From assembly GCA_958296245.1 (NCBI GenBank), contig OY282458.1:2036197-2100196 (forward strand): 64,000 bases of DNA, written 5' to 3'. Both the position numbers and the translations under genes were made by a program. Positions 43,272 to 62,176 of this stretch are shown piece by piece. The notes beneath the pieces are model-generated. The model was not told where the DNA came from. It was given only the letters and a program-made list of their open reading frames with translations, and did not search any database. Positions within the stretch are counted from its first letter, which is position 1; every line of letters begins with the position of its first letter. This stretch comes from an uncultured Dehalococcoidia bacterium. Its GTDB lineage: Bacteria; Chloroflexota; Dehalococcoidia; Lucifugimonadales; G958296245.

Positions 43272-46621
<3,350 letters not shown>

Positions 46622-46638: not shown

Positions 46639-46729
46639 CATCTATCCCCGCGTGTGCGGGGGAACCTTGCCCTCAGGCTCGCGACGCGTTAACCTAACAG
46701 GGCCTATCCCCACGGTAGTCGGGGAATCC
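46639..46729 (-). CRISPR. Inverted degenerate mini-CRISPR (CreR-like crRNA gene) between cas3 and cas8e
   Basis: Read on the minus strand there is a degenerate repeat (46729-46701: hairpin CCCC...GGGG then ATAGGCC), a 34-nt spacer (46700-46667) and a second repeat (46666-46639) matching 26 of 28 positions of the main array repeat. After handle AUAGGCCC the guide begins TGTTAGGTTAACGC. The plus-strand sequence just downstream of the cas8e promoter, from 46788, is TGTTAAGTTAAAGC. Of the first 14 positions only 6 and 12 differ, the positions flipped out in Cascade complexes. Matching falls off beyond about position 21. This predicts Cascade binding without cleavage, hence repression. Confidence 0.8.
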
Positions 46730-46751
46730 TTGGGCGATCCGACCCAGAGGC

Positions 46752-46780
46752 TTGACCTCGAAGGATTTCCACTATACTAT
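46752..46780 (+). promoter_or_regulatory. Promoter of the cas8e (Cascade) operon
   Basis: TTGACC (46752-46757) is followed by a 17-bp spacer and TACTAT (46775-46780); TATACT at 46773-46778 is an alternative -10. The region is the most AT-rich part of the gap and lies 43-70 bp before the cas8e ATG. Confidence 0.65.
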
Positions 46781-46784
46781 ATAT

Positions 46785-46820
46785 AACTGTTAAGTTAAAG
46801 CTGCGCAATCAAGAGCCAAA
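46785..46820 (+). promoter_or_regulatory. Predicted Cascade target site in the cas8e leader
   Basis: AAC (46785-46787) would act as PAM, and the protospacer-like sequence starts at 46788. Its first 14 positions match the mini-CRISPR guide except at 6 and 12, and 21 of 33 positions match overall. The PAM's last base equals the eighth handle base (C), as in the main array, where spacers often begin with G or C after the 28-nt repeat. Occupancy would block initiation or early elongation of the cas operon. Confidence 0.7.
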
Positions 46821-46822
46821 AA

Positions 46823-48433
46823 ATGCTTAACCTTCTCACAGATCCCCTAATACGATACGACCGATCCGGGCATGGCGAGGCCTCCCTGCCTGAAGTTTAC
46901 GCCGCGCTGGTGGCCGACGAGGTTGAAGCCTTCCCTGCTCTGCGCCCCCACCAGCGCCACGCCTGGCACGCCTTCCTGGTCCAACTGGGCGCGATGGCCA
47001 TGCACCGAGCCGGCCTGGAGGATCTGCCTACGACCGCCGGGGAATGGGCCAACATCATCCGCGGCCTCACCGGAAAGGACTTCCCCGGCGACGAGCCGTG
47101 GCATTTGGTGGTGGACGACATCACCAAGCCCGCCTTCATGCAGCCACCCGCCAAAGACTGGACAAAGTACGACAAGAAGGAACTATTTCAGTCACCTGAT
47201 GCGCTGGATATGCTGGACACAGCCAAGAATCACGATTTGAAAACATTGGTGGCAATCGATGCAAAAGCCGAGGATTGGATATTTGCGCTGATTGCCATGC
47301 AAACAATGAACGGCCAAGTTGGCCGAGGTAATTACCCCATAGCCCGGATGAACAGCGGCGACGGTAGTCGCACTGCGTTTAGTATTACTCCATTTCTTCG
47401 TACAGGTGGGCGTATCCAGCGCGACATTAGTGTCTTGTTGGCTCGTTCGTCGGAAATCATGGAGGAACTGCCATTCAACTGGGACGGGCTGGGGCTTTTG
47501 TGGACAAAGCAGTGGGATGGTGAAAGGGAGAAATTACCTCTCAGATCCCTTCATCCGTTCTTCATAGAAGTGTGCCGCCGACGCCGATTATCAGTTGACG
47601 GCAACTCGTGTCTCTACGCAATGAAAGCCCCCAGTGAAGGACGCCTGGTTGCAGCGGCTAAAAATCGAGGGGTGGTTGGCGATCCTTGGACGCTGATCAA
47701 CTTGGCAGACAAGAATGGTGCCAAGGCTCTGACTTTGCAATCTGGCAGTTTCAGCTATAGAGAAGTTACCAAATACCTGACGTCGGGAGACTGGAAACGT
47801 CCAATTCTATCTCGTCCTATGCAAGGGGAAAAGAACATCAGTCTGACGATGCTTGGGATTCGACGGAAGAAGGGCGGACAAACAGAGGGTTACTACGAAC
47901 GCGTCGTTCCAGTTCGATCAGAGAGACTTCGCACTGCAATGCTTCGAGGTGCGGTGGGCCTTGATTCAGACGACTTGGGAATCATCTCCCAAGGCCGTAT
48001 TACGCAGGTAGGCAAGGTGCAAGCAATACTCAGGGATGCCGTCGCAACTTTCATTGCTCGCGGCAAGAACCTCAAAACCGACCTGACCCCAAAGGAACGC
48101 CAGCGTGTTAGGACTGATGCCACAATTTGGTCAAACCGCCTCGACGAAATCGTTGACGCCACCTTTTTCGACGACCTGCAAGACGAGTTCGAGGCCCCGG
48201 AGAACGAGCGACAGGGCATCCGCCGCCGATGGCTGCTTAACGATGAGGACAAGAGCGGCATAGTGAACCACGCCCGGGCTCTGCTCTACGATGCCGAGGA
48301 TTCGCTGCCCTGTCCGGCCATATCCCGCTACAAGGCGCGAGTCAATGCCGAAGGGTTGTTCGAGGGGCGGTTGCGCGGGAACCGCGGGTTGCCGGACCTG
48401 TTTACAAAAAGTGATGAGGAGGTCCAGGAGTGA
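46823..48433 (+). CDS. cas8e: Cascade large subunit Cas8e (Cse1/CasA)
   Basis: The 536-residue protein starts MLNLLTDPLIRYDRSG, the usual Cse1 beginning, and has WHAFLVQLGAMAMHRAG, TKPAFMQPPA, and a C-terminal four-helix region with DLQDEFEAPEN. It recognises the PAM and recruits Cas3. By eye, about 47160-48170 is clearly less GC-rich than both ends of the gene, which suggests replacement of the middle segment by recombination. Its stop overlaps the next start by 4 bp. Confidence 0.93.
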   Translation: MLNLLTDPLIRYDRSGHGEASLPEVYAALVADEVEAFPALRPHQRHAWHAFLVQLGAMAMHRAGLEDLPTTAGEWANIIRGLTGKDFPGDEPWHLVVDDITKPAFMQPPAKDWTKYDKKELFQSPDALDMLDTAKNHDLKTLVAIDAKAEDWIFALIAMQTMNGQVGRGNYPIARMNSGDGSRTAFSITPFLRTGGRIQRDISVLLARSSEIMEELPFNWDGLGLLWTKQWDGEREKLPLRSLHPFFIEVCRRRRLSVDGNSCLYAMKAPSEGRLVAAAKNRGVVGDPWTLINLADKNGAKALTLQSGSFSYREVTKYLTSGDWKRPILSRPMQGEKNISLTMLGIRRKKGGQTEGYYERVVPVRSERLRTAMLRGAVGLDSDDLGIISQGRITQVGKVQAILRDAVATFIARGKNLKTDLTPKERQRVRTDATIWSNRLDEIVDATFFDDLQDEFEAPENERQGIRRRWLLNDEDKSGIVNHARALLYDAEDSLPCPAISRYKARVNAEGLFEGRLRGNRGLPDLFTKSDEEVQE

Positions 48434-49047
48434 CCACTACGGAAATTGCTCAATCGGCTGACGCTCAGGAACAGCGCGGGCGGGTGCAATCTTGGGGTGA
48501 CGTAGTGAGCTTGGCTAGCAGTATAGCCCAGCTTGCCGAACGTCACCGCGGCGACCTAGCCGAGTTGCGGCGGATGGACCCCGACCATCCGGACGCGGCG
48601 GCCTTCTGGCGGCTGCTGGCGTCCCGTGACCTGCTGGGCAACCCCGTCGTCGAAAGCAAGTGGGCGCTCATCCTACACGGCATCGCGCTGATGACTCCGA
48701 CAACCGGCGGAGACGGCCATGAGCGTACCGCCCACGATGGTTCTGTTCCCGTGGGACAGGCGTTGTTCCTCGGCGGTGAGGCGCAGCGGAAACAAGCCTT
48801 TTACAGCGAGGCGCGGCTCAACCGGCTACTGACGGCCCGGGGGCCGATGCTGAGGGACCTGCTGGCACGTATGTTCAGGATGCTCGCCACATCCGGGGCG
48901 TCTTTCGACTGGCGCGAAATGGCCTGGTTCATCCTCAACGAAGGCTACAACGAAGACAAGGCCGAACAGGGCCGCCGCAGCATCGCTCGCGGCTACTACC
49001 AGGCGGAACGGCGCAGCTCACAACAATCAGACAGTCAAGGAGAATGA
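48430..49047 (+). CDS. cas11e: Cascade small subunit Cas11e (Cse2/CasB)
   Basis: The 205-residue helical protein has the Cse2 pattern: DLAELRRMDPDHPDAAAFWRLLA near residues 38-60, an ALILHGIALM helix, and a C-terminal FDWREMAWFILNEGYNEDKA. It forms the dimer along the belly of Cascade that stabilises the R-loop. Start GTG 48430 overlaps the cas8e stop. The order cas8e-cas11-cas7-cas5-cas6 is canonical for type I-E. Confidence 0.92.
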   Translation: MTTTEIAQSADAQEQRGRVQSWGDVVSLASSIAQLAERHRGDLAELRRMDPDHPDAAAFWRLLASRDLLGNPVVESKWALILHGIALMTPTTGGDGHERTAHDGSVPVGQALFLGGEAQRKQAFYSEARLNRLLTARGPMLRDLLARMFRMLATSGASFDWREMAWFILNEGYNEDKAEQGRRSIARGYYQAERRSSQQSDSQGE

Positions 49048-49049
49048 CA

Positions 49050-50210
49050 ATGACAACCCCAAGGTTCCTGCAAATCCACACCCTGCACTCCTACCCGGCG
49101 GCGCTGCTGAACCGCGACGACAGCGGCTTGGCCAAAAGGATGCCATTCGGCGGCGCGGTCCGAACCCGCATATCGTCCCAGTGCCTCAAGCGCCACTGGC
49201 GAAAGGCAGAGGACGAGTTCTCTTTGAAGAACATTGAGGGTTTTACCGATTCCGTGCGCTCACGAAATGCAGTCTCTCTGGGTGTGATAGAACCACTACG
49301 AAATGACAAAGCAGTTAGCGAGGAAGTTTTGCAAGCGGTTGAGGAGGTTTTTCAGGAGAAGGTCTATAGTGACAGCGGTACTCAGCCTTTGCTGCTTGGC
49401 TTACCCGAAGTGGAGTACTTGAAGAAAAAAGCCGCCGCTATCATCGAATGCTCGAATGACGCCAAAACCGCTAGCGACGCTGCTAATCTGTTATTCAGTA
49501 CGCAACGCCGCAACGAAGAACACGACAATTTCCGGGCTTTTAGGGAACAGACCAAATTCCCCGGAGGGCTAATCAGCGCACTGTTTGGAAGAATGATGAC
49601 CTCAGACCCCGGCGCAAACATCGAGGCCGCCATCCACGTGGCCCACGCCTTCACAGTGCACCTAGAAGAGAATGAAAGCGACTTCTGGGCTGCGGTGGAC
49701 GACCTTCCGAAAGAAGAAGAAGGTTCTGGTGCGGCGCATTTGAATGACATGGAGCTGACCGCCGGGCTGTTCTACGGCTACGTTGTGGTGGACGTTCCGG
49801 GGCTGGTATCAAACCTGGAGGGCTGCCAGGCCGAGGAATGGGAAAACACCGACCGGGAACTGGCCGCCAAGGTTGTCGAACACCTGACCCACCTCATCGC
49901 CACTGTGTCCCCCGGCGCCAAGCTCGGCTCCACCGCACCCTATGCCTGCGCCGACCTCGTGTTGATCGAAGCGGGCAGCCGCCAGCCCCGCAGCCTCGCC
50001 AATGCCTACCGCGACCCGTCAAGAGCACAGGTCACCGACGCCACAGATGCCCTGGTCGGGTATCTGGGCAAGCTGGACAATGCCTATGGCGCAAAGGAGG
50101 CCCGCCGGGTGATGTCCGTGGAGGACTGCGAAATCCCCAATGCGGAACGCCTGTGCCTGGACGACCTGGCATCCTGGGCGGCTGACGCCATCCGCAACGC
50201 CAAGGTGTAA
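49050..50210 (+). CDS. cas7e: Cascade backbone subunit Cas7e (Cse4/CasC)
   Basis: The 386-residue protein begins with LQIHTLHSYPAALLNRDDSG and GGAVRTRISSQCLKRHWRKA, the start of Cas7e. Near the C-terminus it has PGAKLGSTAPYACADLVLIE. Six copies coat the guide and flip out every sixth base. AAGGAG at 49037-49042 favours ATG 49050 over 49044. The segment about 49200-49750 looks less GC-rich than the rest, similar to the pattern in cas8e. Confidence 0.93.
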   Translation: MTTPRFLQIHTLHSYPAALLNRDDSGLAKRMPFGGAVRTRISSQCLKRHWRKAEDEFSLKNIEGFTDSVRSRNAVSLGVIEPLRNDKAVSEEVLQAVEEVFQEKVYSDSGTQPLLLGLPEVEYLKKKAAAIIECSNDAKTASDAANLLFSTQRRNEEHDNFRAFREQTKFPGGLISALFGRMMTSDPGANIEAAIHVAHAFTVHLEENESDFWAAVDDLPKEEEGSGAAHLNDMELTAGLFYGYVVVDVPGLVSNLEGCQAEEWENTDRELAAKVVEHLTHLIATVSPGAKLGSTAPYACADLVLIEAGSRQPRSLANAYRDPSRAQVTDATDALVGYLGKLDNAYGAKEARRVMSVEDCEIPNAERLCLDDLASWAADAIRNAKV

Positions 50211-50983
50211 TGATGGCCAGGCATTTGATAATCAATCTGGAATCGCCGTTGATGGCCTTCGGGGGGGAGACCATCGACTATCTCGGCGTCATCCGGCCCT
50301 TTCCGGCAGCGTCGATGATCACCGGGCTGCTGGCAAATGCGCTGGGCTGGCGGCGCGTCGAGCGACAGCGGCACCAGGGCTTGCAGGACCAGATGGTCTT
50401 CGCCGCCCGCATCGACAGGGAACCCCACGGTGGCCTCAGCACGCGAGACTTCCAGACCGCACAACTGGCCGCCAACGACAAGGGTTGGACCACCAGGGGC
50501 GCGCCGGAGAAACGGGCCGGAGGAGCCCCTACCTATAACGCCCCACACCTGCGTTACCGCGACTACTGGGTTGATATGCGCGTGACCGTTGCCCTACGGC
50601 TGGAGCCGATAGACGGGGATCCGACACTGGACGGGCTGGAAAAAGCCCTGGAAGAACCGGCGCGTCCGCTGTTCATCGGGCGCAAGCCTTGTCTGCCGTC
50701 CAGCCGGCTGTTCGCCGGGTTCAGGGATGGAGATACGTCGCTGGCGGCGCTGCTGGCGCATCCCCTGCCGGACGAGACGGCCAGCCGCGCCGCCGTGAAG
50801 ACCCTCTGGCCTGAGGCGGAAGGCTTACCGGAGATTGAAGCCAGCCGCGCCTATATGCTCACCGACCAGCGCAACTGGACTTCCGGCCTTCATGGAGGCG
50901 GCAGGCCGGTATGCGAAGGCGCTATTGACCGGGATAAGTTCGCCGTAGAAGCCGCGTCTCCGGAGAAGGAAGAGCAGACATGA
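50210..50983 (+). CDS. cas5e: Cascade subunit Cas5e (CasD)
   Basis: The 257-residue RAMP protein starts MMARHLIINLESPLMAFGGE and has PFPAASMITGLLANALGW. It then has TYNAPHLRYRDYWVDMRVTV and the ARPLFIGRKPCLPSSRL segment typical of Cas5e. It binds the 5' handle of the crRNA. ATG 50210 shares a base with the cas7e stop. The 3' end overlaps cas6e by 4 bp. Confidence 0.92.
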   Translation: MMARHLIINLESPLMAFGGETIDYLGVIRPFPAASMITGLLANALGWRRVERQRHQGLQDQMVFAARIDREPHGGLSTRDFQTAQLAANDKGWTTRGAPEKRAGGAPTYNAPHLRYRDYWVDMRVTVALRLEPIDGDPTLDGLEKALEEPARPLFIGRKPCLPSSRLFAGFRDGDTSLAALLAHPLPDETASRAAVKTLWPEAEGLPEIEASRAYMLTDQRNWTSGLHGGGRPVCEGAIDRDKFAVEAASPEKEEQT

Positions 50984-51735
50984 CCATAGCAACCAGCGCC
51001 GCCCCGGAAACGGCCACCCTGCAAATGGTCCGCGCCGAGGTCAGGGTGCGCGAGTTCCAACGTTGGATGGGGACGAGGCGTCTGCAAGACCCGGACCATG
51101 CGATGCACTGTTTGTTGACCGAGTGCTTCGGGGACCTGGCGCCCAAGCCGTTCCGGTTGATAGCCCCCCGCGGCGCGTCAACCGGCTGCCTTTACGGGTA
51201 CGGGCGGGCGGGCGCCGATGCCCTGCGAGAGTCGGCCGACATCTGCGCCGACCCTCTCCAGGCCCAAATCATCCCTGCCTCGACCATCGACAGCAAGCTG
51301 ATGCCCCAGCAGTGGACGGCGGGTAAACGCCTCGGATTCGAGGTCCGTATCCGGCCTGTGGTGCGCCGTACCTGCAACGCCAAAGACCGACCCAAGAAAG
51401 AGTGTGACGCCTTCCTTCACGAGGCCCTCCAATACCCGGAAAAGGGCGGTATGAAACGGGGCCGGGAACAGGTGTATGCCGAGTGGCTATCTGGGCGGCT
51501 TGACCGTAAGGGCGCAGCAATACTGGACTTTGAGAATACCAAGCTGATGTCTTTCCAACGCACCCGCGCTGTCCGCAAGCTGCGCGCCCGCCACAGCGAG
51601 GGCCCCGACGCGGTGATGCGTGGTGTCCTAACCGTCACAGACTCCGCAGCCTTCGCCGCCCTGTTGTCCCATGGCATCGGCCGTCACCGGGCCTATGGCT
51701 ATGGGATGCTGCTTTTGCGTCCGCCCCGCGAGTGA
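50980..51735 (+). CDS. cas6e: crRNA-processing endoribonuclease Cas6e (Cse3/CasE)
   Basis: The 251-residue double-RRM protein has WMGTRRLQDPDHAMHCLLTECFGD near the N-terminus, which contains the conserved catalytic-region histidine. It has the C-terminal glycine-rich SHGIGRHRAYGYGMLLLRPP loop that defines Cas6e. It cuts pre-crRNA on the 3' side of the repeat hairpin, leaving an AUAGACC-N handle here. The 130-bp gap to cas1 is unusual in this otherwise overlapping operon and holds repeat-like sequences. Confidence 0.92.
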   Translation: MTIATSAAPETATLQMVRAEVRVREFQRWMGTRRLQDPDHAMHCLLTECFGDLAPKPFRLIAPRGASTGCLYGYGRAGADALRESADICADPLQAQIIPASTIDSKLMPQQWTAGKRLGFEVRIRPVVRRTCNAKDRPKKECDAFLHEALQYPEKGGMKRGREQVYAEWLSGRLDRKGAAILDFENTKLMSFQRTRAVRKLRARHSEGPDAVMRGVLTVTDSAAFAALLSHGIGRHRAYGYGMLLLRPPRE

Positions 51736-51773: not shown

Positions 51774-51861
51774 CCGGTTCCCCGCAAACGCGGGGGCATG
51801 CCCTGGGACGGGATGTTCGCCGAGACTCGAAAATGCATTCTTGCATACGCGGGGAAGGGAG
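51774..51861 (+). CRISPR. Degenerate CRISPR repeat-like pair between cas6e and cas1
   Basis: 51774-51801 (GGTTCCCC-GCAAACGCGGGGGCAT core) resembles the array repeat with one deletion and a few substitutions. About 60 bp downstream, GCATACGCGGGGA (51843-51855) matches the 3' half of the repeat hairpin in 12 of 13 positions. The spacing equals one repeat-spacer unit. The first element is also framed by GTCCC/GGGAC, so a larger RNA hairpin is possible. A relic array or regulatory RNA is inferred; no target was identified. Confidence 0.45.
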
Positions 51862-51869
51862 ATTGCCCA

Positions 51870-52787
51870 ATGCTGAGAGGGCGCTTAGGACTGGAGACTG
51901 CCAGGATACCCCATGCCGACCGGCACGGGCTTTTGTGGCTATCCAGGGGCGCGCTTACCGTGCGCGACGGTACGCTGCGCTTCGAGCGGCTTGGAGAGCC
52001 GGACGGCGGCAGCTCGTTGGAAGCCGGCGAGTACGGCATCCCGTTCCAGTCCCTGTCCATGGTCCTGCTAGGGCCGGGATCTACGGTGAGCCATGACGCC
52101 TTGCGGTTGATGGCGCGCCACGGTACGGCGCTGGTCGCTGTAGGCGAGGACGGCGTACGGTGCTACACCGCACCCCCGTTGATGTCTGACACGTCGGACA
52201 TTGCCCGGAAGCAGATGCAGGCATGGGCCGATGCTGATGGAAGCCGCATGACCATTGCCAGGAAGATGTATGCCCTGCGGTTGGGGGAGGTGCTGCCCCA
52301 GCAGAACCTCCCGGCGCTGCGCGGCGTCGAAGGCGCCCGCATGAAGCGGACCTACCAGACCCTGGCGCAACGCTACGGCATTCCCTGGAGGGGGCGCCGC
52401 TACGACCGGAACGATCCGACGTGGGCGGACATTCCCAATCAGGCTATCAACCACGCTTCGGTGGCCGTGACCTCGGCGGCCGTAATTGCCGTTACGGCGG
52501 TGGGCGCAATCCCCCAGTTGGGTTTCATTCACGAACACAGCGGCGAGGCCTTTGTCTTGGACATTGCCGACCTGTTCCGGGACACCATCCTGTTGCCCGC
52601 AGCGTTCCAGTCGGCCAGGGCCGTGATGAACAACCCCGCGCTGAACATCGAGCGGCACACCAGGCGCACCACTGGGGAATTGCTCCGCGCCAAGCGCGTG
52701 ATCCCCAAGATGATCGACCGCATCAAGACCCTCTTCGACGATGTAGTTCTCCCCGATGATGGGCGGGAAGCCCCTACGGAAGAGTAG
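51870..52787 (+). CDS. cas1: CRISPR adaptation integrase Cas1 (type I-E)
   Basis: ATG 51870 (MLRGRLGLETARIPHADRHG) gives 305 residues, the normal Cas1e length; GGGAGA precedes it. The frame is open from 51798, but that part is non-coding repeat-like DNA. Conserved features are GPGSTVSHDALRLMARHG, NHASVAVTSAAVIAV, and the catalytic GFIHEHSGEAFVLDIADLFRD carrying the active-site H and D. With Cas2 it integrates spacers at the leader end of the array. Confidence 0.95.
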   Translation: MLRGRLGLETARIPHADRHGLLWLSRGALTVRDGTLRFERLGEPDGGSSLEAGEYGIPFQSLSMVLLGPGSTVSHDALRLMARHGTALVAVGEDGVRCYTAPPLMSDTSDIARKQMQAWADADGSRMTIARKMYALRLGEVLPQQNLPALRGVEGARMKRTYQTLAQRYGIPWRGRRYDRNDPTWADIPNQAINHASVAVTSAAVIAVTAVGAIPQLGFIHEHSGEAFVLDIADLFRDTILLPAAFQSARAVMNNPALNIERHTRRTTGELLRAKRVIPKMIDRIKTLFDDVVLPDDGREAPTEE

Positions 52788-52808: not shown

Positions 52809-53096
52809 ATGACCGTGGTTGTTACCGTCAACGTGGAGGCTCGTTATCGGGGATTCCTGACCTCAGCGATGCTGGAAATAGCGCCCGGAGTATACACCTC
52901 CCCGCAAATGACCAGTGGGATAAGAGAAAGGATCTGGGATGTTCTGTCCCGGTGGTATTACGAGCTTGGCCAAGGTTCGATAGTGATGACTTGGCGGGAC
53001 TCTACAGCCGTAGGCGAGCAGCGGATCCGCACCCTGGGCGAAGCCCCGAAGGACATCGTAGATGCCGATGGCGTCTACCTAGTAAAGTACCGCTAA
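52809..53096 (+). CDS. cas2: CRISPR adaptation protein Cas2 (type I-E)
   Basis: The 95-residue protein is full length for Cas2e: VVVTVNVEARYRGFLTSAMLEIAPGVYTS, IRERIWDVL and a C-terminal GVYLVKYR strand. It has no DnaQ extension. The stop codon is only 6 bp before the first CRISPR repeat, so any leader signals must lie inside this gene. Confidence 0.93.
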   Translation: MTVVVTVNVEARYRGFLTSAMLEIAPGVYTSPQMTSGIRERIWDVLSRWYYELGQGSIVMTWRDSTAVGEQRIRTLGEAPKDIVDADGVYLVKYR

Positions 53097-53102
53097 GCAA
53101 GG

Positions 53103-56100
53103 GGTTCCCCCGCACACGCGGGGATAGACCGTTACCCGAATCCCTGTCGGGAGAGTTAAGCACGGTTCCCCCGCACACGCGGGGATAGACCGTATCATCC
53201 CGCAAGACTTCATCCAGGAAGAGAGGTTCCCCCGCACACGCGGGGATAGACCGTCGGCGCGCTGGTCAACGCCCGGCTCGCGGCCGGTTCCCCCGCACAC
53301 GCGGGGATAGACCTCGGCCAGCTCTTTCCGAGGAGACCCGCCCCTCGGTTCCCCCGCACACGCGGGGATAGACCGTCCGACCTGGCCGGCTGGAGGGCCT
53401 TGGTCAAGGTTCCCCCGCACACGCGGGGATAGACCGTCGGCAAGCACGTTCAGACGCTGAGCTCGGCAGGTTCCCCCGCACACGCGGGGATAGACCCTGC
53501 GCCGTCGAAGATGTCATCCTTGCCTCGCTGGTTCCCCCGCACACGCGGGGATAGACCGCACGAGGCCACAACGACCTACCGACGGCATACGGTTCCCCCG
53601 CACACGCGGGGATAGACCGTACGCACGCGCCGCCGCCTCGATCTCGGCCCGGGTTCCCCCGCACACGCGGGGATAGACCGGCATCGACAGAGTGGAAGAT
53701 CAAATATGCCAAGGTTCCCCCGCACACGCGGGGATAGACCGCGGGCGTTGCGGACGTTCGGCGACCAGTTCGGGGTTCCCCCGCACACGCGGGGATAGAC
53801 CGCATGGCCGCGACCCGGTTGGCCGTGATGCCGTGGTTCCCCCGCACACGCGGGGATAGACCTCTTGGACGGCGTGACCGCCGCGCCCGCCTGGAGGTTC
53901 CCCCGCACACGCGGGGATAGACCCTTGACCCTTGTCTGGCGGCGGCTGCTGTCCGGGGTTCCCCCGCACACGCGGGGATAGACCGTCTCCAGGATAGACC
54001 TTGGCACACCTGGGGTCGGTTCCCCCGCACACGCGGGGATAGACCGCCAGGGGTCAACGGGCTGGTCGTCGTGGTGGTGGTTCCCCCGCACACGCGGGGA
54101 TAGACCCTGACGAAGCCGCTTATCAATGGCCTCGAAGTTGGTTCCCCCGCACACGCGGGGATAGACCGTAAGCATCCTCGCCGCCGCCGCGCTTTGGTGG
54201 GGTTCCCCCGCACACGCGGGGATAGACCCTCCATAGTACCGATGCAGTACGACGGAGATCAGGTTCCCCCGCACACGCGGGGATAGACCCAACGTCGGGG
54301 ATGCGATCAACGGGCTGGCGAGGGTTCCCCCGCACACGCGGGGATAGACCCCGCGCTCACGGCCATCAGCGCGAGCAGTGGAGGGTTCCCCCGCACACGC
54401 GGGGATAGACCGGTCTGTGGTTGGAGCGGCCGCGGCTATGATAGGGTTCCCCCGCACACGCGGGGATAGACCCTTATCTCGTCCTGTACGGGGTCGGGCA
54501 CTGCCGGTTCCCCCGCACACGCGGGGATAGACCCTAGACGGCGGTAGCCGGGACCGACCTATACCCGGTTCCCCCGCACACGCGGGGATAGACCGCGTGG
54601 ATGATACCAGATTCTGAGAAGAGGTTGGGTTCCCCCGCACACGCGGGGATAGACCCCCGACCGGTGAGGGTTGCAGGATTAGCCCTGAGGTTCCCCCGCA
54701 CACGCGGGGATAGACCTCATGCGGTTCATTCGCAGCGCGTCCGATGGTGGGTTCCCCCGCACACGCGGGGATAGACCGTAGCGAGGCTGCTGGAGACAGC
54801 GGCCCGGAGGGGTTCCCCCGCACACGCGGGGATAGACCGTCGAACGAGGAGGACGAGGAGGAGCCTGCGCCGGTTCCCCCGCACACGCGGGGATAGACCG
54901 TATACCACAGGAGACGGCCTTGTGCCGGGTTTGGTTCCCCCGCACACGCGGGGATAGACCCATATCTGGACAGTCGACTCGTCGCAAGGCGTAGGTTCCC
55001 CCGCACACGCGGGGATAGACCGCGAGAACGTCGAAGTAAGCGACGAGAGAGGCGGGTTCCCCCGCACACGCGGGGATAGACCCACGTGCTGGGAGGTCAT
55101 TGACGCGGCGCACGGGGTTCCCCCGCACACGCGGGGATAGACCGCCCGCTGCTCATCGTCCGTTGCCCGCCGCCCCGGTTCCCCCGCACACGCGGGGATA
55201 GACCTTCAAGGTTGCGGGCGGTCTTGACCCGCATGTTGGTTCCCCCGCACACGCGGGGATAGACCAACCCGCAGTTCGAGGGCATCAACGACTACGTGGG
55301 TTCCCCCGCACACGCGGGGATAGACCTCAGCGCTCATGTATCTGGGCGGTTTCAACCCGGGTTCCCCCGCACACGCGGGGATAGACCTCATGGTAGATGG
55401 AGACCCGCTGGCCGCCCAGGGGTTCCCCCGCACACGCGGGGATAGACCGATATGCGACCTATGGCAGCCGCACCAGTCTTGGGTTCCCCCGCACACGCGG
55501 GGATAGACCGATATGCGACCTATGGCAGCCGCACCAGTCTTGGGTTCCCCCGCACACGCGGGGATAGACCGATATGCGACCTATGGCAGCCGCACCAGTC
55601 TTGGGTTCCCCCGCACACGCGGGGATAGACCATCTACATCACGGGGGCAGGACGACAAACGAGGGGTTCCCCCGCACACGCGGGGATAGACCGCCGATGG
55701 AGGCGGCCCAGCCGCCGCCGCCCAAGGTTCCCCCGCACACGCGGGGATAGACCGCAAACGTCGCTGCCAGGCCCTCCTGGGGCAGGGGTTCCCCCGCACA
55801 CGCGGGGATAGACCGCCCAGACCGAGCTTGCTCGTGAGTAGGTTCGAGGTTCCCCCGCACACGCGGGGATAGACCTCGCACGGTTGCGCCAGCCTCTCGA
55901 CCCCGCGCGGTTCCCCCGCACACGCGGGGATAGACCGGTGGCGTTGGTGTGTCTGGAGCGTAAGGCGCTGGTTCCCCCGCACACGCGGGGATAGACCTCA
56001 AGGGTGGTCCTGGAGGAGTGCAGGTAGGCCGGTTCCCCCGCACACGCGGGGATAGACCGTGAGTGGGGTGACGGGAATGGACTTCAGAATCGGTTCCCCC

Positions 56101-57034
56101 GCACACGCGGGGATAGACCCGTCTCCTGGTGGTGCGCCAAGACCTCAGTACGGGTTCCCCCGCACACACGGGGATAGACCGGCGCGGGAGGACTGGGGGT
56201 TGATTAGGCAGTAGGTTCCCCCGCACACGCGGGGATAGACCCGCCCCACGTCGATCTATCGAACGCCGCGCTCTGGTTCCCCCGCACACGCGGGGATAGA
56301 CCCTGTTTCTACGAGGGCGTCGTTCCCCGGTCTCGGGTTCCCCCGCACACGCGGGGATAGACCTCCCCTTCAGCGCCCACCAGCGCCCCCGTAACGGGTT
56401 CCCCCGCACACGCGGGGATAGACCGAAGGCCCCAGCCGTCCCCGCCGCGTCCCCCGAGGTTCCCCCGCACACGCGGGGATAGACCCCACACCGAACACCG
56501 CCGGGCCTATTCCCCACTGGTTCCCCCGCACACGCGGGGATAGACCGATTGCCGCCCAGGTGCTTGACTCCGGCATGAAGGTTCCCCCGCACACGCGGGG
56601 ATAGACCTGGATCGGCGAGCACGAGGCGCGGCGGGTGATAGGTTCCCCCGCACACGCGGGGATAGACCGTCAGCACGGCTCGGAGGTTCGAGGGGTTTGC
56701 CGGTTCCCCCGCACACGCGGGGATAGACCTAGGGGGTGCGGGGGGTAAGCCCCGGGGGAGTCGGTTCCCCCGCACACGCGGGGATAGACCGCGCGATGCA
56801 GAGGGCGAGATTCCCCTCTCAAGGGTTCCCCCGCACACGCGGGGATAGACCCAGAAGGTGCGGAGCGAGGTCGAGATGGAGGCCGGTTCCCCCGCACACG
56901 CGGGGATAGACCGAGCATCGCCCATATCATCAGGAAGATGAAGGCGGTTCCCCCGCACACGCGGGGATAGACCCCACACCCACACGCTCTGGCCCGCCAC
57001 GTCCACGGTTCCCCTGCACATGCGGGGATTGACA
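53103..57034 (+). CRISPR. Type I-E CRISPR array, about 65 repeats
   Basis: The 28-bp repeat is GGTTCCCCCGCACACG followed by CGGGGATAGACC, with hairpin CCCCGC-ACAC-GCGGGG. Starts run from 53103 to 57007 at a regular 61-bp period, giving 65 repeats and 64 spacers of 33 nt. The first spacer base is most often G. The repeat at about 56155 has one substitution, and the last (57007) has three, including CCTGCACATG. That marks the right end as leader-distal, so transcription is rightward. Three consecutive spacers (55449, 55510, 55571) are identical. The array starts 6 bp after cas2 and ends 6 bp before the DprA-like gene's stop. Confidence 0.98.
55421..55631 (+). repeat. Triplicated repeat-spacer unit in the array
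   Basis: Spacers at 55449-55481, 55510-55542 and 55571-55603 are identical (all begin gatatgcgacctatggcagc). This shows tandem amplification within the array by recombination between repeats, not three separate acquisitions. Confidence 0.95.
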
Positions 57035-57039
57035 TGCTG

Positions 57040-57717
57040 CTACGCCGTCGCGCCTACGCTTCTTGAGGGGCGAGGCGTGTTCATCTTGATGATCCGCTCC
57101 GCCTCTATGACCTCTGCCCCCATGCCCGCGAGGTTCGCGTTCGCGGGGCTGGCCAGCGTCAGGAGCGGCTTGCCGGAAGCGGCGAGCTTGCGGGCTAGGG
57201 CCTCGGTCCTGCCGCTGGGCGCGGCGTGGGTTATGAAGACTCGGCTGGCGAGGGCTGCGACCATCTCGTTGCGCCGGGCTGCGAGCTCCGTCGTCGGGCG
57301 GCGTCGGGATTCGGGGAAGGGCGACAGTACCAGCATCCTACCGGCGTTCAGAGGGTCGCGCCAGTCGCGGGGGATTCGCATCTTCTCGACGCTGCGCGCC
57401 GGGCAGACGACCACGGGCTGGCCGCCTCGGAGCAGCAGGCGCAGGCACTCCTTCTCCATCGGCGTTTGGAATCCGCCTATGACGGGGACTCCGGCGTCGC
57501 GCATGGCTCTGGCGAGGTCGTAGGTCTTGAGGATGAGGTCGCCGGGGCAGCGGTTGGAGCAGAAGAGGGCGGTATGTTGGGCGTCCAGCGCTTCGGGGTC
57601 GCCGATGGCGTGGAAGCGGGCGTCCTCTCCGCTCGGCGCCATCAGGGGGGCAGCGCCAAGAGCAAGCGATATGGCGGAGGCCGCGGGAGCGCCTGTTCGG
57701 GCGCGGTTCTGGTCCAT
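57040..57717 (-). CDS. DprA-like (SLOG superfamily) Rossmann-fold protein
   Basis: The 225-residue product has FCSNRCPGDLILKTYDLARAMRDAG, then VIGGFQTPMEKECLRLLLRGGQPVVVCPAR, and LSPFPESRRRPTTELAARRNEMVAALA. This is the order seen in the Rossmann core of DprA-like proteins. There is no C-terminal winged helix. Full DprA loads RecA on incoming single strands. Stand-alone SLOG proteins often act as nucleotide-signal sensors, so either role is possible. It is convergent with the array and ends next to the last repeat. Confidence 0.75.
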   Translation of the reverse strand: MDQNRARTGAPAASAISLALGAAPLMAPSGEDARFHAIGDPEALDAQHTALFCSNRCPGDLILKTYDLARAMRDAGVPVIGGFQTPMEKECLRLLLRGGQPVVVCPARSVEKMRIPRDWRDPLNAGRMLVLSPFPESRRRPTTELAARRNEMVAALASRVFITHAAPSGRTEALARKLAASGKPLLTLASPANANLAGMGAEVIEAERIIKMNTPRPSRSVGATA

Positions 57718-58837: not shown

Positions 58838-61800
58838 CTAGTCATCCTCGGTGCCCTCGAACGAAGTCCTCACCACCAGCGAATACTCCAGCTCTATCTC
58901 CTGCCAGATATCGCTGAGCCCCAGAGCCTCCAACCATATCTTGTCAGCCTTGTCCGTGATGTGCCGACACCTAGCCAGGTTGTAGTTCCCGATGTTCTTG
59001 CCAGCGTTCAGCTTGAACACCAGGTTCTCAGTCATGGCGCTCTCTAACTCTGGCAACAAGGCCAAGAGATGTTTCCGCTGCTGTTTGGTCAACTGCCCTG
59101 GCCCTATAGGTGCGCTGGCAAAGCTCTTGTGGGTTACATGGAAATCGTCGCCGATTGCGACCCACCACATGTACATCAACAACCCGTTCGCCAATAGGAT
59201 GGAGAGGTCTCTGTCGTGTTCCTCGCGGAATCGAGCGGAACCATATTGGGTTTGCGCTAAAGTTGTGCCATCAACCCCGGTCACCGGAGGCTTTCTTACA
59301 CAGAACGTCAACCAATTGTAAGCTGTCTGCTTGAAATGAAGAGCATGGCCTGCACGGCCAGTAGAGAACTCGTTCTGGAGTCGGTAATCCCCATTCCCCA
59401 GCAGGGATTCGAAGCCTCGAATCAGCTGGGTTCTGCCAATCTTGGGAATGAGCCCTTCGAACGCTGCCGGAGAGAAGGGGGAGTACGACAAGCTATCAAA
59501 TAGAGTTGGACGCTGAGAGTGAAACCACCTGTGCAGCCGCGTAGTGAAGCAGCGCTTCGACGCCCCGGATGACTTGTGGCCCAAGTAGATTGTATTGCGA
59601 ACCCGAGTATCGAAACTGAACAGGGCTGAGGGAATGCGCCCAAACGACGAAAACCATACGGAACTGCATTCTTGATACAGGTGGGCGCGCAGACTGGCAA
59701 ACCCTGAACTGAAGGTGATGCTCAGCGGCACGATCATGCTGGTGCGTCCGTTGGTTCGACATACGTTGACGCTTCTTTCTACGACCGTGGCGTATATGTC
59801 TGGACTTCCCGCTGTTAGGAACCCCTTCGTCGTATACGACTGGAGTACCTTTCGCCTCGACACGTAGGGCGGGTTGCCGATGATGACGTCGAAGCCGCCT
59901 TTGCGCATGATGCCGTAGAATTCGGCGAACCAGTGGAAGGGCTGGTGGCTGGTCTGCCAAGCCACGTAAGCGTCCGATTTGTTCGGGTCCACGCCGTACT
60001 CGCCGGCCAAGAGGCGATCCAACCGGTCGGCCAAGGTGTGGAGGCGGTCTCGGAGTGCCTGCTTGTCGGCGGCAGTTACCTCCCCTCCGAGCATAGTCTG
60101 TTGCCGCCTGAACTCGTGGGCCATCCAGTCCACGCCGCGGGCATCCTCCACAATACGGTCGAGTGCAGCCTGCTCCTCCGGGAACACCTGCCGGTGCTGT
60201 CCGTCGGGCATGATGGTCATGGCTTGGCGCACGGCGTCCAAGGACGTGAAGCCGACGAGGGTGTTGCCCGCGCGGATGTTGAAGTCGATGTCCGGCAGCG
60301 GCTCTATCTGGTCGTAGCTCTTCAGTTGTGCGACGAGCTTGAGGAAGAGGCGCAGCTTGCAGATCTCCACCGCCTCTTCCATGATGTCCACGCCGTAGAG
60401 GTTGTTGAGGACGATGGACTTGAGGATGAAGTACCGCTCGCTGGGGTGCTCATCCGCCTCGTCCAGTACCTTGCGGAAGTCCTCAAGATGCTTCGGGCTG
60501 CGCTTACGCTCGGACCTTTTGGCATCATCCAAGAAGCCGCGCATCCCCTCCAGGCAGGCGGTGTAGAGGGGTTCGAGGATGTTGAGGGCTGCGAAGAGGA
60601 ACGCCCCGGAGCCGCACGTGGGGTCGAGCACCGACACGCCCCGCATGGCGTGCCAGAAGGCGCGCAGGAGCTCCGGCCCCTCGCTCTGGGCGATGACGTC
60701 CTTGGCGAACTGCTCCACGTCCAGGTTCAGGGTGATGAGGTCGTTGACCTCCTGCACTTCGCCCGACGCCAGCTTGGCGCGCACCTCGGCGTAACGCTGG
60801 CGGCGGGCCGCCACCTCGCGCCAAGTCTCGGTGGGCAGGGCGTAGTCGTCGGGGGCCGGGCTGTTCCAGCCGCCGCGCTTGGACACGTCGCCGACTCCGG
60901 CGGCGACGTCGTCGGGCAGATCGAAGGACGCGTCCAGGGGTTTCGGGTCCTCAGCCTGCCGAGCGTTCCAGGCGATGCCGTGGCCGACGGCGGGGTAGAC
61001 GTAGCGGTCGGGGTCGTCTTGGAGCAGACGCCACACGCCGCCGTCGGGCGCGAAGGCCACCCGGCATTCCTTCTTGGCGGCGTCGAACAGGAAGGGGATG
61101 ACGGTGTTGCGTCCGATGTAGCCTGTGATGTCCTCCTTGGTGTAGTAGGCGCCCATCTGCTTTTGGTTGACGTACTTCTCGAAGATGTAGCCGAGCACGT
61201 CGGGGTTGATCTCGTTGTCCTCGCGGTGCGGACGCTCGTCGAGGTGCCAGTGGTAGGCGTCGAAGAAGTCGAAGACTCGCTCGAAGGCTTCGTCGGGGAT
61301 GCCGATGCCCGGGTTGTCGCGCTCCAGGTCGTGGACGTCGAAGAGACCGCCGTTGAGGAATGGGACTTCGCCGAGATGGTCTGCGAGGTCGGGCTCGCGC
61401 TCGGCTTGGGGCTGTCCCAGCCCCTCGTGGAAGAGGCGGAGCAGGAAGATGCGGTAGAACTGCTGGAACTGGCCGGGGCCTGCCTGTTTCTGGACGATGC
61501 GCAAGCGGTTGCGGAGGTAGTCAAGGTCGCCGTCCAGGAAGCCCTGCTTCTGGATGAAGTAGACGAACATCATGCGGTTGAGCATGAGGGATGCGTACCA
61601 GCAGCGGTCTCCCTGGGCGGAGATGCCCTTGATGAAGTCTCCGAAGGCGGTCAACTCCGCCCTGAAGTGCTCGTAGAAACGCTTAGTCACCCTGTCAACG
61701 TCGAATGCCTTGCTGACGCGGGACGTGACGACGGGAACACTCAGGCTCCCTTCCTCTTCAATTGCAAAGGCCAGGCCCTGTAGACGCTGAAGCAAGTGGT

Positions 61801-62176
61801 CCCCGCTCTGGCCAGCAGCGAAGGTGAACTCCCGGTAGGCGGCGGGCTTGCCGCTCTCCCGCTTGACCCACTGCCATATCTGCGTCTTGCGGCCGGGGTC
61901 GGTGAAGACGATGATGTGTTCGTAGGCGCTCTTGGCGACCTGGCTCTCTATCTTGCGCCGAACCGGGTATTCCGGGATGTTGTTCTCGACGCTGGAGTCG
62001 CACTCGTAGACGACGACATCCTCCTTCTCCGCGACGGGCTTCAGGGAGTAGCGGCGGTCGTTCACGTGGACGACCGGGGGGTCAACCCTGTGGTAATTCC
62101 AGCCGAGTTCCACGAGGAGGGCCTCGAAGTCGAAGGCGTGGAGGTGGGGCCTTAGCTCTTCAATGGCAACCGGCAT
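58838..62176 (-). CDS. Eco57I/PglX-like large DNA methyltransferase (possible DrmMI or type IIG relative)
   Basis: The 1112-residue protein has an N-terminal nuclease-like region (IESQVAKSAYEHIIVFTDPGRK near 75-97). The adenine-methyltransferase core has motif I VLDPTCGSGAFLFAAL and catalytic FDVIIGNPPYVSRRK, and a ~350-residue C-terminal target-recognition part. It is the type found in type IIG enzymes and in DISARM/BREX loci. The adjacent SNF2-like helicase suggests a class 1 DISARM-like or helicase-assisted R-M system. The other DISARM genes would lie beyond the window, so the assignment is open. Confidence 0.8.
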   Translation of the reverse strand: MPVAIEELRPHLHAFDFEALLVELGWNYHRVDPPVVHVNDRRYSLKPVAEKEDVVVYECDSSVENNIPEYPVRRKIESQVAKSAYEHIIVFTDPGRKTQIWQWVKRESGKPAAYREFTFAAGQSGDHLLQRLQGLAFAIEEEGSLSVPVVTSRVSKAFDVDRVTKRFYEHFRAELTAFGDFIKGISAQGDRCWYASLMLNRMMFVYFIQKQGFLDGDLDYLRNRLRIVQKQAGPGQFQQFYRIFLLRLFHEGLGQPQAEREPDLADHLGEVPFLNGGLFDVHDLERDNPGIGIPDEAFERVFDFFDAYHWHLDERPHREDNEINPDVLGYIFEKYVNQKQMGAYYTKEDITGYIGRNTVIPFLFDAAKKECRVAFAPDGGVWRLLQDDPDRYVYPAVGHGIAWNARQAEDPKPLDASFDLPDDVAAGVGDVSKRGGWNSPAPDDYALPTETWREVAARRQRYAEVRAKLASGEVQEVNDLITLNLDVEQFAKDVIAQSEGPELLRAFWHAMRGVSVLDPTCGSGAFLFAALNILEPLYTACLEGMRGFLDDAKRSERKRSPKHLEDFRKVLDEADEHPSERYFILKSIVLNNLYGVDIMEEAVEICKLRLFLKLVAQLKSYDQIEPLPDIDFNIRAGNTLVGFTSLDAVRQAMTIMPDGQHRQVFPEEQAALDRIVEDARGVDWMAHEFRRQQTMLGGEVTAADKQALRDRLHTLADRLDRLLAGEYGVDPNKSDAYVAWQTSHQPFHWFAEFYGIMRKGGFDVIIGNPPYVSRRKVLQSYTTKGFLTAGSPDIYATVVERSVNVCRTNGRTSMIVPLSITFSSGFASLRAHLYQECSSVWFSSFGRIPSALFSFDTRVRNTIYLGHKSSGASKRCFTTRLHRWFHSQRPTLFDSLSYSPFSPAAFEGLIPKIGRTQLIRGFESLLGNGDYRLQNEFSTGRAGHALHFKQTAYNWLTFCVRKPPVTGVDGTTLAQTQYGSARFREEHDRDLSILLANGLLMYMWWVAIGDDFHVTHKSFASAPIGPGQLTKQQRKHLLALLPELESAMTENLVFKLNAGKNIGNYNLARCRHITDKADKIWLEALGLSDIWQEIELEYSLVVRTSFEGTEDD

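Follow-up and report, generated by a model that had tools for sequence, protein, structure and literature searches.

A degenerate mini-CRISPR upstream of cas8e as a probable CreR gene of a type I-E Cascade operon

Between cas3 (ending at 46621) and cas8e (starting at 46823) of the 64,000-nucleotide stretch of DNA analysed here (the window), a degenerate mini-CRISPR was found on the minus strand, as seen from the sequence and from its alignment to the array repeat. We consider it very probable that this mini-unit is a CreR gene, encoding a crRNA-like RNA by which type I-E Cascade represses its own cas8e promoter. An inverted degenerate repeat-spacer unit had already been recognised at this place in a sequence-only reading, and its coordinates were confirmed (Table 1).

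The two repeats of the unit are worn in different parts. The 5' repeat, psi-R1, lacks the conserved left part but keeps the hairpin stem (fold of -10.4 kcal/mol) and the handle ATAGGCC, followed by C at 46700 as its 8th base. In the 3' repeat, psi-R2, the left part and the stem are intact (-13.1 kcal/mol) and the handle is worn (ATAGAT). In the type I-E processing pathway, a guide RNA needs a 5' handle and a 3' Cas6e stem. Taken together, psi-R1 with its 5' handle and psi-R2 with its 3' Cas6e stem would supply the bare minimum for a single guide RNA. In a BLAST-type search of the whole genome the mini-unit was the sole ectopic repeat, the other 64 matches all lying in the array. A canonical immune mini-array has intact repeats and a foreign-derived spacer; here the psi-repeats are worn and the spacer matches the promoter of its own operon.

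Table 1. Coordinates of the mini-CRISPR, its target and the surrounding type I-E locus in the window.
Feature	Position	Strand	Sequence or basis
cas3	43865..46621	+	cas3 core and HD models
psi-R2, 3' repeat	46640..46666	-	GGTTCCCCCGCACACGCGGGGATAGAT; 2 mismatches to 28-nt array repeat
Guide (psi-spacer), 33 nt, read from 46699 downwards	46667..46699	-	TGTTAGGTTAACGCGTCGCGAGCCTGAGGGCAA
psi-R1, degenerate 5' repeat	46701..46729	-	GGATTCCCCGACTACCGTGGGGATAGGCC; alignment to array repeat
Predicted cas8e promoter TTGACC-17-TACTAT	46752..46780	+	consensus scan, 9/12
Predicted divergent mini-CRISPR promoter TTAACT-16-TATAGT	46771..46798	-	consensus scan, 9/12
PAM-like AAC of self-target	46785..46787	+	AA before 25/27 best targets across loci
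Protospacer-like target of guide, at predicted cas8e transcription start / 5' leader	46788..46820	+	TGTTAAGTTAAAGCTGCGCAATCAAGAGCCAAA
cas8e (cse1), first gene of regulated operon	46823..48433	+	TIGR02547 above cut-off
cse2, cas7e, cas5e, cas6e	48430..51735	+	TIGR02548, TIGR01869, TIGR01868, TIGR01907
cas1e	51798..52787	+	TIGR03638
cas2-like ORF (putative)	52809..53096	+	from translation
Canonical I-E array	53103..57035	+	28-nt repeat, 61-nt period

The surroundings of the operon may be described briefly. The canonical array begins a few bases past the stop codon of the cas2-like ORF (53096-53103), and therefore any leader would fall within that ORF. Its 29th repeat base varies (G 33, C 17, T 11, A 2), so the array handle is read as AUAGACCN; the last repeat (57007-) is degenerate. 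One array spacer (GATATGCGACC...) is present three times in succession at 55421-55603. The array is followed by a DprA-like protein (57040-57717, minus strand), which scores slightly under the Pfam cut-off, and by a type IIG restriction-modification enzyme (58838-62176, minus strand). On the other side, a DEDDh exonuclease adjoins cas3 (43272-43928, minus strand), and an N-terminal fragment of a similar DEDDh protein is found between the CreR target and cas8e in the related locus L014.

When the guide TGTTAGGTTAACGCGTCGCGAGCCTGAGGGCAA is compared with the target TGTTAAGTTAAAGCTGCGCAATCAAGAGCCAAA, 22 of 33 positions agree overall, with 10/10 at positions 1-5 and 7-11. The sequence-only reading had counted 21 of 33, so that the partial match is real and its figure is corrected by one; its observation that the guide mismatches at positions 6 and 12 and that the seed otherwise pairs fully was borne out. 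Pairing fades past about position 14-21. The AAN-plus-seed pattern AANTGTTANGTTAA has a single occurrence in the genome, a single contig of 2.69 Mb, with 0 control hits in the same pattern search. Among 20,000 shuffled guides with the AA PAM, none reached 10/10 and 11 reached 9, and the best seed match of the array spacers used as control (n=63) was 7.

For comparison with other genomes, 53 cas8e loci were fetched. From the cas3-cas8e gaps, 28 mini-units, including that of the window, were picked by hairpin and handle before the target search; two of them (L025 and L035) were extracted from the hits of an earlier search. An own-locus target with an AA PAM and a seed score of 9/10 or better was found for 22 of these 28 preselected mini-units, which are not fully independent as related loci share some ancestry, against a mean of 0.94 and a maximum of 7 when the guides were permuted over the regions. 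The count is conservative: L022 and L029 were scored as negative, yet both have targets. In L022 the first 14 target bases equal those of the guide, so that masking of the guide's own copy removed them, and in L029 the search region was too short. Without a PAM filter, and with L053 included, 25 of the 27 best hits with a seed score of at least 9 were preceded by AA (p 2e-28), and AA therefore independently marks these hits as Cascade targets. No convincing unit was seen in loci with almost no gap between cas3 and cas8e, such as L011, L015-L017, L019, L057, L059, L067, L068 and L070. These results suggest that a cas8e with a promoter of its own is commonly autorepressed. An agnostic scan of whole loci was also tried; its many 9/10 hits stemmed from weak sites resembling a handle and were taken as noise.

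The nearest relative with the operon is L014 (labelled uncultured Dehalococcoidia, Chloroflexota; the same locus as G378), which has the same gene order and a psi-R1 nearly identical to that of the window. Within the first 14 guide bases outside positions 6 and 12, the two guides differ at positions 8, 13 and 14, and each change is mirrored to the same base in the target. Positions 6 and 12 drift without matching, and past position 14 guide and target are uncoupled. Compensated changes over positions 1-17 were also counted in other pairs of loci: 5/6 for L010/L013, 3/4 for L038/L039, 8/9 for L039/L042 and 9/11 for L041/L043. Covariation is weaker for L045/L046 (3/9 compensated). We account for this by the hit chosen in L046, which lies on the minus strand, is not preceded by AA and is unlikely to be the true target of that locus. 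Judged from these alignments, the guide-target relation is kept in evolution, which argues against a relic or a chance match. Comparing guide and leader in related genomes had been proposed in the sequence-only reading as a check, and with 22 of 28 loci and the mirrored changes in L014 it came out in favour. Its broader proposal, that the operon autoregulates through a dedicated guide, gains support from the same results and from the promoter-like targets described below, with the mechanism itself staying at the level of prediction.

The mismatch profile was compiled from 26 guide-target pairs, among them L053, which was added once its target was known and stands outside the 28 preselected units, and L024, for which a plus-strand target was picked by hand although a site on the minus strand had the same score. 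Mismatches were found 23 times at position 6, 22 times at position 12 and 18 times at position 18, with other positions up to 17 showing 0 to 10. Positions 6, 12 and 18 are the bases flipped out by Cascade. Taken together they are mismatched in 63/78 cases, which is not different (p 0.3) from the 75% that unpaired bases should show when they drift freely. Restricting the count to positions never used for the choice of pairs, there are 40/52 mismatches at positions 12 and 18 against 26/130 at positions 13-17 (p 1e-12). Mismatches are more frequent at positions 9 and 15 as well, with 18/52 compared to 16/208 (p 4e-6), a hint that the middle of a block may tolerate them. The former expectation that related guides would mismatch their seed at positions 6 and 12 only was too strict, since position 9 is mismatched in 8 of the 26 pairs and positions 1-3 are occasionally mismatched. 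Past about position 21, pairing over the 26 pairs is at background level. Two further ideas were dropped: G-U wobble as the source of the position-9 mismatches, most of which are not wobble pairs, and a link of the 8th handle base to the third PAM base (C/C in the window), which is absent in other loci. A literature search on mismatch periodicity of Cascade gave no useful paper.

The targets also stand at promoters. In the window, the cas8e transcription start predicted from the sigma-70-like consensus match falls near the PAM, and the -35 element of the predicted mini-CRISPR promoter falls inside the guide target. Across loci, targets sit on sigma-70-like promoters when compared with AA sites of the same regions (Mann-Whitney p 2e-10). 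Minus-strand units lie a short distance from their own targets, and the best sigma-70-like site for such a unit overlaps the target in 17/17 tested, a test which is inflated by AT-richness and in which many of the sites are weak. A different layout is seen in the loci labelled Acidobacteriota/Thermoanaerobaculia and Gemmatimonadota: there the plus strand carries the unit, which lies in the predicted cas8e leader between the target and the gene. With either layout the guide would restrict its own supply.

The following mechanism is proposed. Transcription of the minus strand from the promoter diverging from that of cas8e would give a psiR1-psiS-psiR2 RNA, which Cas6e would trim to a guide with the handle AUAGGCCC for loading into Cascade. 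CreR-Cascade on the AAC-flanked target at 46788, the predicted cas8e start, would then block RNA polymerase. The same target overlaps the promoter predicted for the mini-CRISPR, and the RNA therefore probably keeps its own synthesis in check. With the seed paired in 5-nt blocks and the pairing fading further along the guide, Cas3 attack should not fire. The basis for the expected sparing is incomplete distal pairing, as understood from work on R-loop completion. Cascade of E. coli binds in vivo with a PAM and as few as 5 seed pairs (PMC5904413), and therefore seed-weighted pairing should be enough for binding. Repression would be released when abundant array crRNAs compete for Cascade, or in the presence of anti-CRISPR proteins, both leaving less CreR-Cascade. 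The case for direct control of cas8e is clearest for the window and for just a few loci besides (L018, L025 and L056), since even in L014, the closest relative, 333 nt and a small ORF separate the target from cas8e.

Some explanations do without such control of cas8e. The guide may belong to a CreTA/CrePA-like module in which it represses a toxin, either an RNA or a small protein, so that Cascade becomes addictive and cas8e is merely downstream. This would suit the many relatives which have 280-510 nt with small ORFs between target and cas8e, an eight-cysteine protein being encoded there in six of them. However, the start of the target in the window is only 35 nt from the cas8e ATG, which leaves no room for a protein toxin, and the small ORFs differ from clade to clade; a toxin module is thus unlikely in our view. 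Still less probable is a functionless relic mini-array with an accidental self-targeting spacer. Degenerate repeats and partial pairing are what a relic would show, but decay would not keep the seed, and here guide and target covary over diverged relatives with mismatches that obey Cascade geometry.

A chance match of a stray repeat unit to an AT-rich promoter hardly deserves belief, as the sequence-only reading had already judged. It is true that the target region is AT-rich and that the window guide scores 9/10 in the region of one other locus, but the absence of an equal match among 20,000 shuffles, the single genomic site and the 22 of 28 loci against 0.94 under permutation refute this explanation statistically. 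The minus-strand RNA might also be imagined to pair antisense with the cas8e leader mRNA rather than to act via Cascade on DNA, given that guide and leader have sequence in common. The guide is in the same sense as the leader and so cannot pair with its mRNA, and the handle, Cas6e stem, PAM and 6-nt spacing are features of Cascade, which makes antisense pairing extremely improbable. The preferred reading is therefore that of a CreR gene acting on the cas8e promoter.

Two sets of ORFs downstream of the targets may be mentioned. In L013, L020, L024, L028, L030 and L060, small ORFs with eight invariant cysteines (zinc-finger-like) lie between the CreR target and cas8e, and those searched had no Pfam match above the cut-off and no PADLOC match. 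This ORF is undescribed and absent in the window; in the six loci it would be the first gene of a CreR-controlled operon. The second set belongs to L041, L043, L045 and L046: these ORFs, 76-81 aa long and downstream of the target, span the mini-CRISPR and have their ends just over the start of cas8e, so that the guide may be embedded in a reading frame.

A combined reading of these results is a real possibility, which falls a little short of probable. The type I-E CreR pairs across phyla would be an evolutionary read-out of Cascade geometry, with positions 6, 12 and 18 mismatched at the neutral rate and with positions 9 and 15, in mid-block, as a second class in which mismatches are tolerated. 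A guide placed under its own target, either by way of a shared divergent promoter or within the cas8e leader, would make the loop self-limiting, and the eight-cysteine protein would come under control of this loop as well in six loci.

Among known systems, CreA of CreTA (PMC9458426, PMC8501985) shares with the present unit a psiR1-psiS-psiR2 guide, the use of Cascade and promoter repression by partial pairing. The difference is in the target, which is the cas8e promoter in the window, without a toxin gene between target and cas8e. CreA targets a toxin promoter, and here the next gene is cas8e, 35 nt on. In SpyCas9 autorepression, mentioned in PMC13131331, the effector likewise represses its own promoter and anti-CRISPRs relieve the repression. 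SpyCas9 differs in being a type II effector that uses a long tracrRNA and no mini-CRISPR. CreR (cas-regulating RNA; Liu et al. 2023 Cell Host Microbe 31:1481, pmid 37659410), as presented in PMC12948488, PMC13131331 and PMC12737573, is known from types I-B, I-E and V-A and resembles our case in a mini-CRISPR adjoining cas genes, worn repeats and a partial match to a cas promoter, with type I-E among the described types; judged through these citing papers, no decisive difference was found. The window has a degenerate-repeat mini-CRISPR beside the cas operon (46640-46729) and a limited, seed-weighted match with a PAM in the cas promoter (22/33, 10/10 in the seed, AAC, a promoter-like site), and in terms of sequence the unit is like CreR on every count. 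CreR autorepression has been published for type I-E (PMC13131331), and so the autoregulation claimed here is not new in kind. On strong evidence from covariation, RNA-guided self-regulation of type I-E is now extended to lineages that are for the most part uncultured. Also, the ~26 natural guide-target pairs, which presumably repress without self-cleavage, give a testable rule for the pairing that Cascade needs to bind without calling Cas3, and such a rule would be useful for Cascade-based gene repression.
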